A stretch of 42,611 nt of DNA from assembly GCA_007375725.1 (NCBI GenBank), contig VMEV01000009.1, positions 1-42,611 of the forward strand, given 5' to 3'. The position numbers and the translations under genes were made by a program. Below the pieces are notes generated by a model, which was given only the letters and a program-made list of their open reading frames with translations, was not told the origin of the DNA and did no database searches. Below, one piece after another: positions 6,731 through 30,335 of the stretch. Numbering within the stretch: position 1 is the first letter of the stretch; the number at the start of each line of letters is the position of its first letter. Origin of the DNA: Parcubacteria group bacterium Greene0416_36. GTDB lineage: Bacteria > Patescibacteriota > Patescibacteriia > VMEV01.

Positions 6731-6815
6731 CAACAAATCCCTCCCTAACCCTCCCTTTAACAAGGGAGGGCGCTTGTGTCCCCCTTGTCAAAGGGGGATT
6801 AAGGGGGATTTGTTG
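6731..6815 (+). repeat. double-hairpin repeat DHR copy 3 (forward)
   Basis: Same consensus; begins 2 nt after the asnS stop. Confidence 0.95.
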
Positions 6816-9230: not shown

Positions 9231-12200
9231 ATGTTTTCTTCCTTTCTAAAAAATCAACTCGGCCAATACTTTATCGATGCTATTATCGGCATTGCGTTTT
9301 TCGCGTCCATCGTGGGGTCGGTGTTTTTGATCGTGCTCAATGTTTATAAATCGACGAATTCGAATGCGGATTATTTTGAGGCTTTGTCGCTCGCGAGAGA
9401 GGGAATTGAGGCCACGCGCAGTATCCGAGATGAATCTGTGCTTAATTTGACGAATGGAAATCATGGATTGGCGCAGTCAGGAGGGAAATGGGTTTTTTCG
9501 GGGACATCGGAGACGATTGAGAAATTCACACGCATGATTGAAATTTCAGATGTCAGTCGGGATTCTGGTGGCAATTATGTTTCTTCCGGGGGAACCGTGG
9601 ATTCTCAATCGAAGAAAGTGATTTCTCGTGTTTCTTGGATTGCTGATTTGGGTACCCGACAGGTATTTTTAGAAGATTTTATTGTGGCTGATATGCGTCC
9701 TTTTAGCTGGAGGGAATCTACGGATACCGATTTTAACGATGGAACGTTTACGAATTTACAACTGGCGGGAGCAGGAGAAGCCGCTCAGATTCAGTTGAAT
9801 TTTGTGGCCGGAGGTGAAGCCAATAAATGGGTACCTGGAGGGGGACAGATATTTACCGATACAACCGATCTGAATTTTAATCAGGGAACTTTCAGTAATA
9901 CTCAAGTGATTGATACGGGTGCCTTAGCTCGCGTGTCCTTGGCTCAAGAAATTAAATGGGATTCTTTTGATTTTCCTTTTGGCACAGCCAACATGAATTA
10001 TGCTTCTACGAATTGGGCGGTTGGAGATAAGGGAGTGATTTTTAAATGGAGCGGTTCCCAATGGTTTCAGGTGACTTCTCCAACGACTAAAATTTTAACC
10101 AGTGTCAGCGAAGTAAGCGCTACTGAAGCTTATGCTGTCGGTAATGATGGCAGGGTTCTGCGATATAGCGGGGCGAGTTGGTCGGCATTATCTTCTCCTA
10201 CCAACTTTGATTTGAAATCCGTGTCTATGATTTCTTCGACCGACGGTTTTGCGGTGGGGAATAAAGGAAAGGTTATTCGTTGGAATGGGACCAGCTGGGG
10301 CTTGATGAGTTCACCCACCAGCAAGGATTTGCTCAGTGTGTTTATGATTTCTTCCAGCGATGGATGGGCGGTTGGAGACAATGGAACCATCATTCGTTGG
10401 GATGGTACAAGCTGGTCTGCAGTTTCTTCTCCTGTGAGTACTTTTTTAAATAGTGTATGGATGGTTTCTGCTACTGATGGGTGGATTGTGGGAAGTCTTG
10501 GGACTATTTTGAGGTGGAATGGCACGGCTTGGAGTACGGTTACGTCTCCGGTGAATAAGCGTCTCAATGGAATTTCTATGATTTCTTCGACCGATGGTTT
10601 TGCTGTCGGGGCTCAGGGGACGATTATTCGTTGGAATGGAACCGCGTGGTCCAGTTTTTCCTCGCCTGTTAATGAAACATTGAAAAGTGTTTTTTTGAGT
10701 TCCTCTATTTTTGGTTGGATTGTGGGGCAAAGGGGAGTGGTTTTGCGTTGGGATGGAACCGTGTGGAATGTTCACGAACAAGCTTCCATTGATAATTTTA
10801 ATAGTATTGATTTATTAACTTCTACTTTTGGCATATTAGCGGGAAATAAAGGAGCTATTTTGCATTGGGATGGATCCACGTGGACACCTTTTTTGTCACC
10901 TACCTCCAAAAATTTGAAAGGAGTTTCTGTGATTTCAGCAACGGATGCTTTTGCTGTGGGGGATACTGGAACGATTCTTCGTTGGAATGGGACCGCTTGG
11001 GCGACAGTCACTTCTCCTGTTTCGGTTAATTTAAATAGTATTTCCATGCTTTCCGGTACAAACGGATTTATAGTCGGCGACAGCGGAACGATTATCCGCT
11101 GGAATGGAACGAGCTGGTCTAGTTTGGCGTCTCCGACGACTGAAAATCTCAATTTTGTTTTTATGCTGTCAGCTTCTGACGGATGGGCCGTGGGGGCCAA
11201 TGGCAGCATTATTCGCTGGAACGGGACCAGCTGGTCTTCCGTGAGTTCACCGGTGACCGCTATCCTTAACAGTCTCTATTTTGTTAGTGCCTCTGATGGC
11301 TGGGCTGTGGGGAATACAGGTACGATTATTCGTTGGAATGGAACAGTGTGGTCCATTGTGTCTTCTCCAATTACCAAAAATCTCAATGGAGTAGGGTTAA
11401 CTTCTTCCACCTCAGGCTATATTGTGGCTGATGGCGGCCGCATTTTGAAATGGAATGGTACAAGCTGGACTACCTTTGTATCTCCGAGCGCTAAGAGTTT
11501 GTTTGCTATCGGTCTTGTGACCGCTTCTAATGGCTGGGCTGTAGGACAATCGGGTACCATTATCCAGTTGTCCAATTTTTTCTTTACTACGGGGACATTT
11601 CTTTCAAGGATTTTTGATGGGGGCTCAGTGAGTGTTTGGAATACATTAAATTGGGTTGAAAATAATTTTGCCGTGACTGATTTGACCATTGCCACGAGAA
11701 CGGGAAATGTTGCGATTCCTGATCTGTCATGGTCCTCTTTTTCAGCCGAAGTGACGAATCCGGGATCTTCTAATATTACTTCCCCTAATGGACGTTATTT
11801 TCAGTATCGTGCAACGTTTACGACTTCTGATGTGAGAGTTTCTGCGGAATTAGACGAAATTAATATTAATTTTAATGCCCCTACGACCACCAATCATTTG
11901 AACGGTTTGAGCATGGTCAGCGCGGTGGATGGATGGTTTGTTGGAAATTCGGGTACCATTGGACGTTGGAACAATGTGGTGTGGCAATTGGTCACTTCGC
12001 CAACTGTGGCGAATTTGAATGAGGTGGATATGGTTTCCTCTTCTGATGGTTGGGCAGTAGGCGCTCTCGGGACTATTATTCGGTGGAATGGAAGTGCCTG
12101 GAATACCGTGGCTTCCCCCACGAGCAACGCGCTTAATGATGTGGATATGGTTTCTTCATCCGATGGTTGGGCCGTCGGAGCCGGTGGAACTATTGTGCGT

Positions 12201-12998
12201 TGGAATGGGGCGAGTTGGAGTGTCGTCAGTTCACCCGTGAGTACTACACTGGAAAATGTCCATATGATTACGGCTTCGGACGGCTGGATTGTGGGCGCTA
12301 GCGGTACTATTTTGAAATGGAATGGATCTACGTGGTCTGTGGCTACCTCTCCCACCGTGGAAAATCTTTTTGGCCTTCATTTTGTCTCTTCAACAGATGG
12401 TTGGGCAGTGGGCGCTTCGGGAAAAGTTTTGAGATATACAGGTGCTTCCTGGACGGAATTTGTGGATGCCGGTTCGGCGATTTTGCGGGATGTGTTCATG
12501 GTCAACAGTTCTGATGCGTGGATTGTGGGAGATGCAGGAACATTGCTGGATTGGAATAATGTTTTTTGGCTGATTTCGGATTCTCCAACCGGTGAAAATA
12601 TCAATGCTGTTGAGATTTCTCCCTCAACAACTCAAGGTTGGGCTGTCGGGGGAACTGGGACTATTTTGCAGTTTACTAATACTGCTCAGGTTCCCAGTTT
12701 TGTCGCCCTCGGCACTTATTTATCGTCTATTTTGAATTCTGATTTTTTATCTACTTTATGGATCGGTACATTTTGGGGAGAACTTTTAGGTGCTAATACC
12801 AATATCAGCGTTTCTGTCCGAACGGGTGATGAACCCGTGCCCGATATTACATGGACTCCCTTTTCTAGTGAATTTTTAAATCCGGGTGGAAATATTTCAT
12901 CACAGGTGGGGCAATATTTACAATATCGTTTAAAATTGACATCGGTGGATGGTATTAATACTCCCACTTTGCAAGATATTACGGTGACATACCAATAG
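9231..12998 (+). CDS. giant pilin-like protein: hydrophobic pseudopilin N-terminus, 14 propeller repeats, beta-rich domain, 7 propeller repeats, beta-rich domain
   Basis: N-term FIDAIIGIAFFASIVGSVFLIVLNVY + AREGIEATRSIRD; repeats of type SSSDGWAVGDNGTIIRWDGTSWSAVSSPVSTFLNSVWMV. Confidence 0.85.
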   Translation: MFSSFLKNQLGQYFIDAIIGIAFFASIVGSVFLIVLNVYKSTNSNADYFEALSLAREGIEATRSIRDESVLNLTNGNHGLAQSGGKWVFSGTSETIEKFTRMIEISDVSRDSGGNYVSSGGTVDSQSKKVISRVSWIADLGTRQVFLEDFIVADMRPFSWRESTDTDFNDGTFTNLQLAGAGEAAQIQLNFVAGGEANKWVPGGGQIFTDTTDLNFNQGTFSNTQVIDTGALARVSLAQEIKWDSFDFPFGTANMNYASTNWAVGDKGVIFKWSGSQWFQVTSPTTKILTSVSEVSATEAYAVGNDGRVLRYSGASWSALSSPTNFDLKSVSMISSTDGFAVGNKGKVIRWNGTSWGLMSSPTSKDLLSVFMISSSDGWAVGDNGTIIRWDGTSWSAVSSPVSTFLNSVWMVSATDGWIVGSLGTILRWNGTAWSTVTSPVNKRLNGISMISSTDGFAVGAQGTIIRWNGTAWSSFSSPVNETLKSVFLSSSIFGWIVGQRGVVLRWDGTVWNVHEQASIDNFNSIDLLTSTFGILAGNKGAILHWDGSTWTPFLSPTSKNLKGVSVISATDAFAVGDTGTILRWNGTAWATVTSPVSVNLNSISMLSGTNGFIVGDSGTIIRWNGTSWSSLASPTTENLNFVFMLSASDGWAVGANGSIIRWNGTSWSSVSSPVTAILNSLYFVSASDGWAVGNTGTIIRWNGTVWSIVSSPITKNLNGVGLTSSTSGYIVADGGRILKWNGTSWTTFVSPSAKSLFAIGLVTASNGWAVGQSGTIIQLSNFFFTTGTFLSRIFDGGSVSVWNTLNWVENNFAVTDLTIATRTGNVAIPDLSWSSFSAEVTNPGSSNITSPNGRYFQYRATFTTSDVRVSAELDEININFNAPTTTNHLNGLSMVSAVDGWFVGNSGTIGRWNNVVWQLVTSPTVANLNEVDMVSSSDGWAVGALGTIIRWNGSAWNTVASPTSNALNDVDMVSSSDGWAVGAGGTIVRWNGASWSVVSSPVSTTLENVHMITASDGWIVGASGTILKWNGSTWSVATSPTVENLFGLHFVSSTDGWAVGASGKVLRYTGASWTEFVDAGSAILRDVFMVNSSDAWIVGDAGTLLDWNNVFWLISDSPTGENINAVEISPSTTQGWAVGGTGTILQFTNTAQVPSFVALGTYLSSILNSDFLSTLWIGTFWGELLGANTNISVSVRTGDEPVPDITWTPFSSEFLNPGGNISSQVGQYLQYRLKLTSVDGINTPTLQDITVTYQ
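9999..11570 (+). repeat. 14 tandem protein repeats, exact 39-aa / 117-nt spacing (last partial)
   Basis: Unit 14 starts exactly 13x117 nt after unit 1; D-G-W-x-VG...W-NGT-W...SP motif. Confidence 0.9.
11919..12690 (+). repeat. 7 further tandem 39-aa repeats (last partial, with 1-aa insertion)
   Basis: Unit 7 starts exactly 6x117 nt after unit 1 of this block. Confidence 0.9.
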
Positions 12999-13092
12999 CT
13001 AGGCTATTAGGCGTTAGGCCATTAGCTTATTAGGAAACAGTAAACAATTTTTTGTTGCTACCTAAAAAGCTAATGCCTAATAGCCTAATGCC
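12999..13092. repeat. word-repeat hairpin (TTAGGC/ATTAGC words) before the next pilin gene
   Basis: GGCTATTAGGCGTTAGGCCATTAGCTTATTAGG ... CCTAAAAAGCTAATGCCTAATAGCCTAATGCC. Confidence 0.8.
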
Positions 13093-13102
13093 TTTTTTCC
13101 AT

Positions 13103-13618
13103 ATGTTTTCTCAAAAAGGATCATCCCTCGTCGAAGTCATCTTCTACATCACCGTCCTAGCTCTGTTCGTGATTTCCATGACGATGTTTAATATTGATCT
13201 GCTCTCAGGATCAGCCAAGCTTCGCACGATTCAGTCCGTGCAGGATAATTTGCGTTTTCCGATTCATAAAATGTCCACCGATATTCGGCGGTCGACGGGG
13301 GTCAATATTGGGTCATCGGTATTCGATACTCACCCCGGAGTTTTATCACTGCAGATGGCCTCAGCCGGAGAAGATCCGACGGTCTACAGTATCTCGAGCG
13401 GACGGCTCCGTGTCCAGCGCGGTGCCGCGTCTCCCGAATTCGTCACGAGTTCGAACGTGATCGTGACTAATCTTGTTTTCAAGAATCTCAGTGTCTCAGG
13501 CAAAACCCGTAATATTCAGGTTTTATTGACTGTCTCTCACGATAATCCCGAAAATATAAATGAGTATTCCTGGACCGAGAGTTTTCAGATCACGGGGCAA
13601 AGTAGGAAGTTTCCCTAA
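13103..13618 (+). CDS. pseudopilin (PulJ/GspJ-like)
   Basis: MFSQKGSSLVEVIFYITVLALFVISMTMF; the longer ORF start lies in the hairpin repeat. Confidence 0.75.
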   Translation: MFSQKGSSLVEVIFYITVLALFVISMTMFNIDLLSGSAKLRTIQSVQDNLRFPIHKMSTDIRRSTGVNIGSSVFDTHPGVLSLQMASAGEDPTVYSISSGRLRVQRGAASPEFVTSSNVIVTNLVFKNLSVSGKTRNIQVLLTVSHDNPENINEYSWTESFQITGQSRKFP

Positions 13619-13700: not shown

Positions 13701-14093
13701 ATGAATGAGAAAGGAATGTCCATCATGCTTTCCGTACTTGTCATCATGAGCGTCTCGCTCCTGATTGCTTTGTCGATCGGGATTTTGGGGTCCGCGGAGC
13801 TGGAGGTGGCGAGTTCTTCGGTGCTTTCGGAGAACGCTTTCCATATCGCCGACCTCTGCGCCGAAGAAGCCGCCACTAAACTCCGCGCCAATAGCTCCTA
13901 TACGGGCGAATCAATCACCTTCTCCGAAGGGTCGTGTACAATTACGGTCACCGGCGCCGGCACTAAGACGATTGACTCCGTCGGCGTCCTCGGCGACTTC
14001 ACCCGAAAAGTCCGTGTCATCGGCACCATCGCCGCCAACTCGCAGGGAAACGCGAAGAAGTTTAGTATTACGAGCTGGGAGGAAATACCCTAG
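13701..14093 (+). CDS. PilX-like pilus-associated minor protein
   Basis: MNEKGMSIMLSVLVIMSVSLLIALSIG hydrophobic start; position in pilin cluster. Confidence 0.65.
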   Translation: MNEKGMSIMLSVLVIMSVSLLIALSIGILGSAELEVASSSVLSENAFHIADLCAEEAATKLRANSSYTGESITFSEGSCTITVTGAGTKTIDSVGVLGDFTRKVRVIGTIAANSQGNAKKFSITSWEEIP

Positions 14094-15073: not shown

Positions 15074-15571
15074 ATGAAAAAACAGGAAAAAAATTATGCC
15101 TATATAGACGGAGCGAATCTTTATAAAGGGTTGGAGCAGTTAGGATGGAAATTGGATTATAAAAGATTTCGTATTTGGTTATCTGAGAAATATCGAGTGA
15201 GCCACGCTTACTTATTTTTAGGATTGGTTCCGAAATATAAAAATTTATATAATAAACTTCAAGAAGATGGCTATACCTTGATATTTAAAGAAGTGACTTA
15301 TGATGGGAATGGGAGAGTAAAGGGAAATTGTGATGCTGATATTGTAGTTCGGGCCATGAAGGATACTTATGAAAATAATTTTGATAAAGCTGTCTTTGTT
15401 TCGAGCGATGGAGATTATGCTTGTCTTATTTCTTTTTTGATGGAAAGAAATAAATTGATGGTGATTTTATCTCCCTCATTAGAGAAACGCTGTTCTATTT
15501 TACTCAAACGTACTGGGGCTAAAATTTCTTGTATCGATGATCATAAAGTTATCCTGAAAAAAAGAGGATAA
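15074..15571 (+). CDS. NYN domain (LabA/DUF88-like) putative ribonuclease
   Basis: YIDGANLYKGL, KGNCDADIVVRAM, VFVSSDGDYACLI acidic PIN/NYN motifs. Confidence 0.85.
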   Translation: MKKQEKNYAYIDGANLYKGLEQLGWKLDYKRFRIWLSEKYRVSHAYLFLGLVPKYKNLYNKLQEDGYTLIFKEVTYDGNGRVKGNCDADIVVRAMKDTYENNFDKAVFVSSDGDYACLISFLMERNKLMVILSPSLEKRCSILLKRTGAKISCIDDHKVILKKRG

Positions 15572-15580
15572 AAAGAAAAA

Positions 15581-15817
15581 GCCCCCGGTACAGACGAACT
15601 GTACAAGGGTCTCTTTCGTAGTAATAAATATATGATAATCCATCTGGATAAAAAAGTCAAATACTCTAAAAATGCAATAAAAAAGGCCCCATAAGGACGG
15701 AACCTTATAGGGTGATCTTTTTCATTCGTGATTCAAATAATGATAGTATAGATATTGTGATCATGCAAATTTTCTGTATACGAAAAACACCGCTTAAGGA
15801 CGGAACATTAAGAGGTG
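15581..15817. ncRNA. array of three related hairpins with ACG(G)AA loops at 103-nt spacing
   Basis: CCC-g-GTACAG-ACGAA-CTGTAC-aa-GGG; CCC-ATAAGG-ACGGAA-CCTTAT-a-GGG; CACC-g-CTTAAGG-ACGGAA-CATTAAG-a-GGTG. Confidence 0.5.
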
Positions 15818-15963
15818 CTATAGATAAGTCAGTTGAATTCCGCGCATAATTTTTATAGAAATAGGCTTTTTTATTGCATTTCTATATGCTGCTTATGCAG
15901 GATTTATAACTGTTTTATCTATATTTCATGTGGATGTGTCTATATTAGGACAAAATAAATTTT

Positions 15964-23667: not shown

Positions 23668-23751
23668 CAACAAATCCCCCTCAATCCCCCTTTGACAAGG
23701 GGGAAGCTCCTCCCTCCCTTGTCAAAGGGAGGGCTGGGGAGGGATTTGTTG
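23668..23751 (-). repeat. double-hairpin repeat DHR copy 6 (reverse)
   Basis: Begins at the nucleotide after the kinase TAG. Confidence 0.95.
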
Positions 23752-25535: not shown

Positions 25536-25622
25536 CAACAAATCCCTCCTCAACCCTCCCTTTGACAAGGGAGGGGGTAGTAGCCTCCCCCTTGTCAAAG
25601 GGGGATTGAGGGGGATTTGTTG
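25536..25622 (+). repeat. double-hairpin repeat DHR copy 7 (forward), inside the ABC operon
   Basis: Same consensus. Confidence 0.95.
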
Positions 25623-27263: not shown

Positions 27264-27350
27264 CAACAAATCCCTCCCCAACCCTCCCTTTGACAAGGGA
27301 GGGAGCAACAGCCTCCCCCTTGTCAAAGGGGGATTGAGGGGGATTTGTTG
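27264..27350 (+). repeat. double-hairpin repeat DHR copy 8 (forward)
   Basis: Begins at the nucleotide after the gldG-like TAA. Confidence 0.95.
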
Positions 27351-30250: not shown

Positions 30251-30335
30251 CAACAAATCCCTCCCCGTCCCTCCCTTTGACAAGGGAGGGCGCTTATGTC
30301 CCCCTTGTCAAAGGGGGATTAAGGGGGATTTGTTG
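30251..30335 (+). repeat. double-hairpin repeat DHR copy 9 (forward)
   Basis: Same consensus. Confidence 0.95.

Follow-up and report, generated by a model that had tools for sequence, protein, structure and literature searches.

RNA-controlled toxins and NYN ribonucleases

Type III toxin–antitoxin modules (ToxIN, CptIN and TenpIN/AbiQ) combine a small ribonuclease with a short structured RNA, are mobile and fall into cognate families of RNA and protein, and in these respects they resemble the locus described here (PMC5086642). Their construction is different: in type III modules a single promoter serves both genes, the RNA lies upstream of the toxin with a terminator between them, the RNA is made of tandem repeats that are processed into pseudoknots and the toxin has the ToxN fold, whereas here the RNA converges on the 3′ end of the NYN gene from its own promoter, each tandem copy is a unit of its own with a single 44-nt hairpin, and the partner has an NYN (PIN-like) fold with 2qip as its best match (PMC5086642). 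AbiF-RCd22 of Clostridioides difficile offers another parallel, an RNA that neutralizes a protein toxin by direct binding (as we infer for the present RNA) and that acts both in cis and in trans; its protein belongs to the Abi_2/AbiF family and not to NYN, and the RNA motifs differ (PMC12373285). An NYN nuclease fold that works with small RNAs is also known from a type III CRISPR locus, where the CRISPR-associated protein, a Mn2+-dependent ssRNA nuclease, trims crRNA but, unlike the pair considered here, has no partner hairpin RNA gene (PMC11346440). Finally, the arrangement recalls type I modules, where a short RNA with a strong promoter of its own lies opposite the toxin gene strand, but the leader and loop of the present RNA show no cognate bias towards the start region of the NYN gene. 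In type I systems the toxins are for the most part small membrane peptides, and the RNAs act by base pairing with the toxin mRNA.

The Patescibacteria form a very large and almost uncultured group from which few small RNAs have been described. The RNA presented here is a compact family with a predicted strand, promoter, structure and protein partner, found in about one in three genomes sampled from one class; a search of the open-access literature, with most subscription papers and preprints outside its reach, returned no description of the family or of its pairing with NYN. If the RNA is an antitoxin, RNA-based toxin neutralization would be extended to proteins of the NYN/PIN fold and to genes in convergent order, and the small RNA–protein pair would be open to direct laboratory testing.

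The locus and its three RNA copies

The window is the whole stretch of DNA that was analyzed, 42,611 nucleotides of contig VMEV01000009.1 from Parcubacteria group bacterium Greene0416_36. The features of the locus are listed below; R1 denotes the covariance model of the minus-strand RNA.

15074..15571, plus strand: gene of an NYN-domain ribonuclease of 165 aa, a putative toxin (Pfam, invariant Asp residues, AlphaFold)
15571..15627, minus strand: small RNA copy 1, with leader, hairpin with loop UUCGU and U-tract (R1 72.1 bits, E 5.6e-13 per genome)
near 15625, minus strand: predicted transcription start of copy 1
15632..15660, minus strand: promoter of copy 1, TTGACT-17-TATCAT, the best promoter-like site of the region, conserved in relatives
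15675..15734, minus strand: small RNA copy 2, loop UUCCGU (R1 43.0 bits, E 3.3e-6 per genome)
15740..15769, minus strand: promoter-like site of copy 2, TTTGCA-18-TATCAT, weaker than that of copy 1
15784..15827, minus strand: small RNA copy 3, type 2 (GCACC...GCGGTGT), probably a remnant (R1 26.9 bits, E 0.0077)
15819..15923, no strand assigned: dispersed inverted-repeat element of ~105 bp (four other copies in the genome, 84–98% identical)

A sequence-only reading of the plus strand had pointed out three hairpins between the NYN gene and argS, with an ACGAA loop at 15594 and ACGGAA loops at 15697 and 15800, and loops and stems were all found at these positions, although the upper stem of copy 3 contains a G-A mismatch. 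Each copy folds better than dinucleotide shuffles (z-scores of -3.3, -2.6 and -2.7 for copies 1, 2 and 3), and nowhere else in the 42.6-kb window, on either strand, does an ACG(G)AA loop sit on an unbroken stem of at least 6 pairs. An exact 9-mer search of the organism's own genome gave no further hairpin copies among the matches listed. The same reading had stressed a spacing of exactly 103 nt; the loop positions hold, but a repeated 103-nt unit does not, as the sequences between the hairpins are not repeats of one another. Tandem duplication of such a unit was rejected as an explanation because these sequences do not align (local-alignment p 0.14–0.86). A promoter plus its RNA measures 90 nt for copy 1 and 95 nt for copy 2, which accounts for a hairpin spacing near 100 nt.

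The hairpins are the body and terminator of predicted minus-strand RNA genes of ~55 nt. Copy 1 belongs to the adjacent NYN as its cognate RNA and copy 2 is a further unit with a weaker promoter, both promoters being sigma-70-like, on the minus strand and convergent with NYN. No promoter scoring above 8/12 was found upstream of copy 3; this copy is probably a remnant of type 2 that lost its promoter when the ~105-bp dispersed repeat displaced it. This repeat (15819..15923) has imperfect terminal inverted repeats with the ends TATAGATAA and TTATCTATA.

Strand, structure and promoter of the RNA

On the strand opposite NYN, the flanks carry TTGACA/T-(16–18)-TATAAT-like elements followed by a leader of ~10 nt (ATCACTAC), the hairpin (44 nt; most members have a loop of 6 nt) and a T-tract. 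The promoter scores at least 10/12 in 52 of the 77 flanks; among the controls, 22 of 1540 random windows and 53 of 1540 shuffles did so. The RNA had been placed on the plus strand by the sequence-only reading, and here the relatives point the other way: in 54 full-length relatives collected via the NYN protein, stem positions read on the minus strand show 82 G-U against 10 A-C combinations, and since a G-U pair on the minus strand appears as an A-C mismatch on the plus strand, this excess identifies the minus strand as the transcript, with loops UUCGU and UUCCGU.

The differing stem sequences of the three copies had been taken as a hint of covariation, and true covariation was indeed found among relatives. 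For a 17-pair structure in 18 sequences, 39 double-change cells were counted against 13.3 in shuffles. In 50 loci collected via the NYN protein, from which near-identical records of the model-building genomes were removed by hand where recognized, the covariation score was 0.373 against 0.168 ± 0.009 and double-change cells numbered 91 against 25.6, all slid structures scoring far lower. Sequence is conserved in the tip (GG-U..GU-CC), the leader and the lower stem, while the upper stem changes freely with its pairing kept; variation is confined to this paired upper stem, and a variable guide segment is absent. Neither a pseudoknot nor internal repeats were found in the RNA.

An RNA of no known family had been suspected, and the Rfam scan agrees, since no family passed the gathering threshold at the window sites or in representative relatives. 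Guanidine-II (mini-ykkC) RNAs have ACGR loops, and this candidate was dropped because Rfam returned no hit to it even with E relaxed to 10. The Rfam matches to trpB and RUF4 are sub-threshold chance matches. CsrA/RsmZ-like ANGGA loops were rejected as well (copy 1 has no GGA and the RNA is not on the plus strand), as was an integron attC site, because the RNA promoter and the wobble pairs lie on one strand.

The NYN partner and the distribution of the pair

The 165-aa protein matches Pfam NYN with 60.2 bits (cutoff 24.2), and residues D12, D87, D112 and D114, the conserved acidic active site of the NYN ribonuclease family, are invariant in 25 homologs. Its AlphaFold model (pLDDT 90.7) has as best PDB match the NYN/LabA-like protein 2qip. 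Sequence and predicted structure thus support the assignment of the partner to an intact nuclease family. The protein also matches PADLOC defence models weakly (HEC-09 35 bits, LabA/NYN 30 bits); among phage records none matched it.

When the NYN–argS intergenic region was compared by blastn with 76 genomes of the same class, hairpin 1 was found at 79–85% identity directly after NYN in genomes of other families, in most of which the NYN proteins are only about 54–64% identical, and copy-3-like hairpins were found after another group of NYN homologs. Because the hairpins are conserved directly after NYN in the genomes of other families, their partner is NYN and not argS. Among 286 genomes of the class, 99 have an R1 match at E up to 0.01, and R1 also matches genomes of other classes of the phylum. 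The 85 RNA-first loci with at least 35.8 bits comprise 58 with an intact NYN, 14 with NYN fragments and 13 with none; in one of the fragment cases (L102) the gene is a distant NYN-like one that lies elsewhere in the locus, hence 71 of the 85 RNAs abut NYN. All 71 are convergent, the RNA overlapping or abutting the NYN stop codon. The strong matches thus adjoin NYN genes and are not just the ordinary terminators that a covariance search of relatives might have returned. The 13 weak matches (at most 34.8 bits, L162–L174) include none beside NYN; they were not accepted as family members and were treated as terminators.

The NYN alignment, used to scan named genomes, yielded a protein-first set of 80 loci. 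Most are from named Patescibacteria, including Wolfe-, Nomura-, Magasanik-, Uhr-, Harrison- and Komeilibacteria; the set also includes two Bacteroidetes bins and one Nanoarchaeota bin, which are probably mis-binned. R1 is present at the NYN 3′ end, in convergent orientation, in 78 of the 80, and of the two exceptions one runs into Ns (L220) and the other shows no RNA there (L208). The first set of relatives also contains a subfamily NYN without RNA (L034). A single non-convergent case was seen, in genome G033 (L027/L083; L083:2317-2372), where NYN is followed downstream, on its own strand, by an apparent variant RNA that has a separate promoter. Comparative sequence analysis establishes the module well: the gene for the RNA, the strand it is read from, the structure of the RNA and the pairing with NYN.

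Mobility and decay of the pair

The pair is found among many different neighbours: 66 upstream genes fall into 61 clusters and 68 downstream genes into 59. One genome (G028) carries two identical tandem modules and one viral contig (L307) carries the RNA–NYN pair. The two partners decay unequally: of 85 intact RNAs, 27 have a broken NYN beside them or none at all, and an intact NYN lacks the RNA in 2 of about 105 cases. The Fisher p of 4e-9 for this difference is indicative only, as the two sets share members and were not sampled in the same way, and assembly frameshifts could account for some of the NYN decay. Of 15 orphan RNAs examined, 14 have a promoter scoring 9–12/12 and the last one 8/12, and NYN remnants accompany several of the orphans. 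The distances of NYN and of RNA are correlated with r 0.60, a value reached in none of 2000 permutations, although such a correlation is also expected from shared descent, and type 2 RNAs fall in one NYN clade in 9 of 9 cases. Three RNAs without an intact adjacent NYN (L099, L102 and L148) are convergent with genes that look Fic-type by eye from their translations.

Possible function of the RNA

We consider it somewhat probable that the pair is a mobile, convergent toxin–antitoxin module similar to type III, in which the RNA inhibits NYN by direct binding. The module would join two genes tail-to-tail on opposite strands, that of NYN and, under a strong promoter, that of an RNA of ~55 nt made up of a ~10-nt leader and one long hairpin ending in a U-tract. 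The NYN protein may recognize the GG-U..GU-CC tip, the lower stem and the leader, and binding would block or sequester the nuclease, making the RNA the putative antitoxin and NYN the putative toxin. Should the RNA be shorter-lived than the protein, as it is in known systems, the nuclease would be freed when the locus is lost or when transcription is arrested, for example by a phage. The extra RNA copies in the window may be spare or foreign antitoxins left by lost modules. An antitoxin that binds the protein is favoured over an antisense RNA or a cofactor because of the asymmetry of decay, the retained orphans, the cognate pairing and the lack of a base-pairing signal to the NYN start; the antitoxin role itself is what these genomic patterns suggest.

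Control of NYN by a cis-antisense RNA, as in type I systems, is unlikely. The RNA would pair with the 3′ end of the NYN mRNA, or its transcription would collide with that of NYN, and NYN expression would be lowered; the convergent layout with the RNA at the NYN stop codon suits this, the complementarity to the 3′ end being automatic and so uninformative. Yet orphan RNAs keep promoter and structure without any NYN, copies 2 and 3 of the window do not overlap NYN and the apparent variant in G033 is on the same strand as NYN. Covariation in the upper stem and a conserved loop are not needed for antisense pairing alone, and leader and loop show no cognate-specific pairing to the NYN start region. 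It is similarly improbable that the RNA is a cofactor or guide which assembles with NYN into an active ribonucleoprotein that might serve, for instance, in phage defence: the pairing is tight and the weak PADLOC matches would fit, but the RNA outlives NYN and has no variable guide segment. Still less likely is a trans-acting regulatory RNA with targets of its own, tied to NYN through its processing or degradation by that enzyme; a conserved leader and loop and the retention of orphans would agree with such a role, but the pair moves jointly between scattered chromosomal sites and unrelated RNAs accompany different NYN subfamilies. The serial regulator or terminator array between NYN and argS that had been proposed from the sequence, be it ordinary bidirectional terminators between convergent genes or a plus-strand array regulating argS, is hardly tenable: A-tracts and T-tracts do lie on both sides of the hairpins and the terminator consensus is matched, but a conserved minus-strand promoter stands directly behind the hairpin and points away from argS, hairpin sequence is conserved across families, association with NYN is near-obligate, core NYN paralogs have no hairpin and the argS link fails, the neighbours on that side forming 59 clusters among 68 loci.

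Other NYN subfamilies and further features of the window

Weaker NYN homologs fall into two sets, one with strong convergent promoters and different RNAs, the other formed by core paralogs (about 25% identity) without promoter or convergent RNA. Within the first set, eight NYN 3′ flanks (L332–L335, L337–L339 and L353) share an RNA of ~80 nt whose first hairpin covaries and which has a terminator, L327, L328, L329 and L354 have mutually similar RNAs, and L036 and L076 have a third kind. Returning to the protein-binding antitoxin, we regard it as an even chance that these modules make up a new class of RNA-controlled ribonuclease toxin–antitoxin systems in Patescibacteria, in which several NYN subfamilies would each have an unrelated convergent RNA antitoxin and arrays of orphan RNAs would protect against incoming modules.

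The ~80-nt RNA, convergent with another NYN subfamily, reads GUCUUUYGGUU...AACYGAAAGGGUAUUACAUCC. The apparent RNA families at L327, L328, L329, L354; at L036, L076; and at L325, L326 read CUCUGGGGU..AGCUCCAGAUUUUUU; ACUAAACG..CGUUUAUUU; and GGCGGAACCAAA, and are convergent with other NYN subfamilies.

Elsewhere in the window, a 1255-aa ORF at 9231-12998 consists of many repeats of ~40 aa (..SSDGWAVGNNGTIIRWNGTSW..) and is adjoined by pilin-like ORFs at 13052-13618 and 13701-14093. A tandemly doubled 10-mer, AATCCCCCTT/AAGGGGGATT or a near variant, occurs at six sites (1376-1395, 6791-6810, 23673-23691, 25599-25617, 27327-27345 and 30311-30330).
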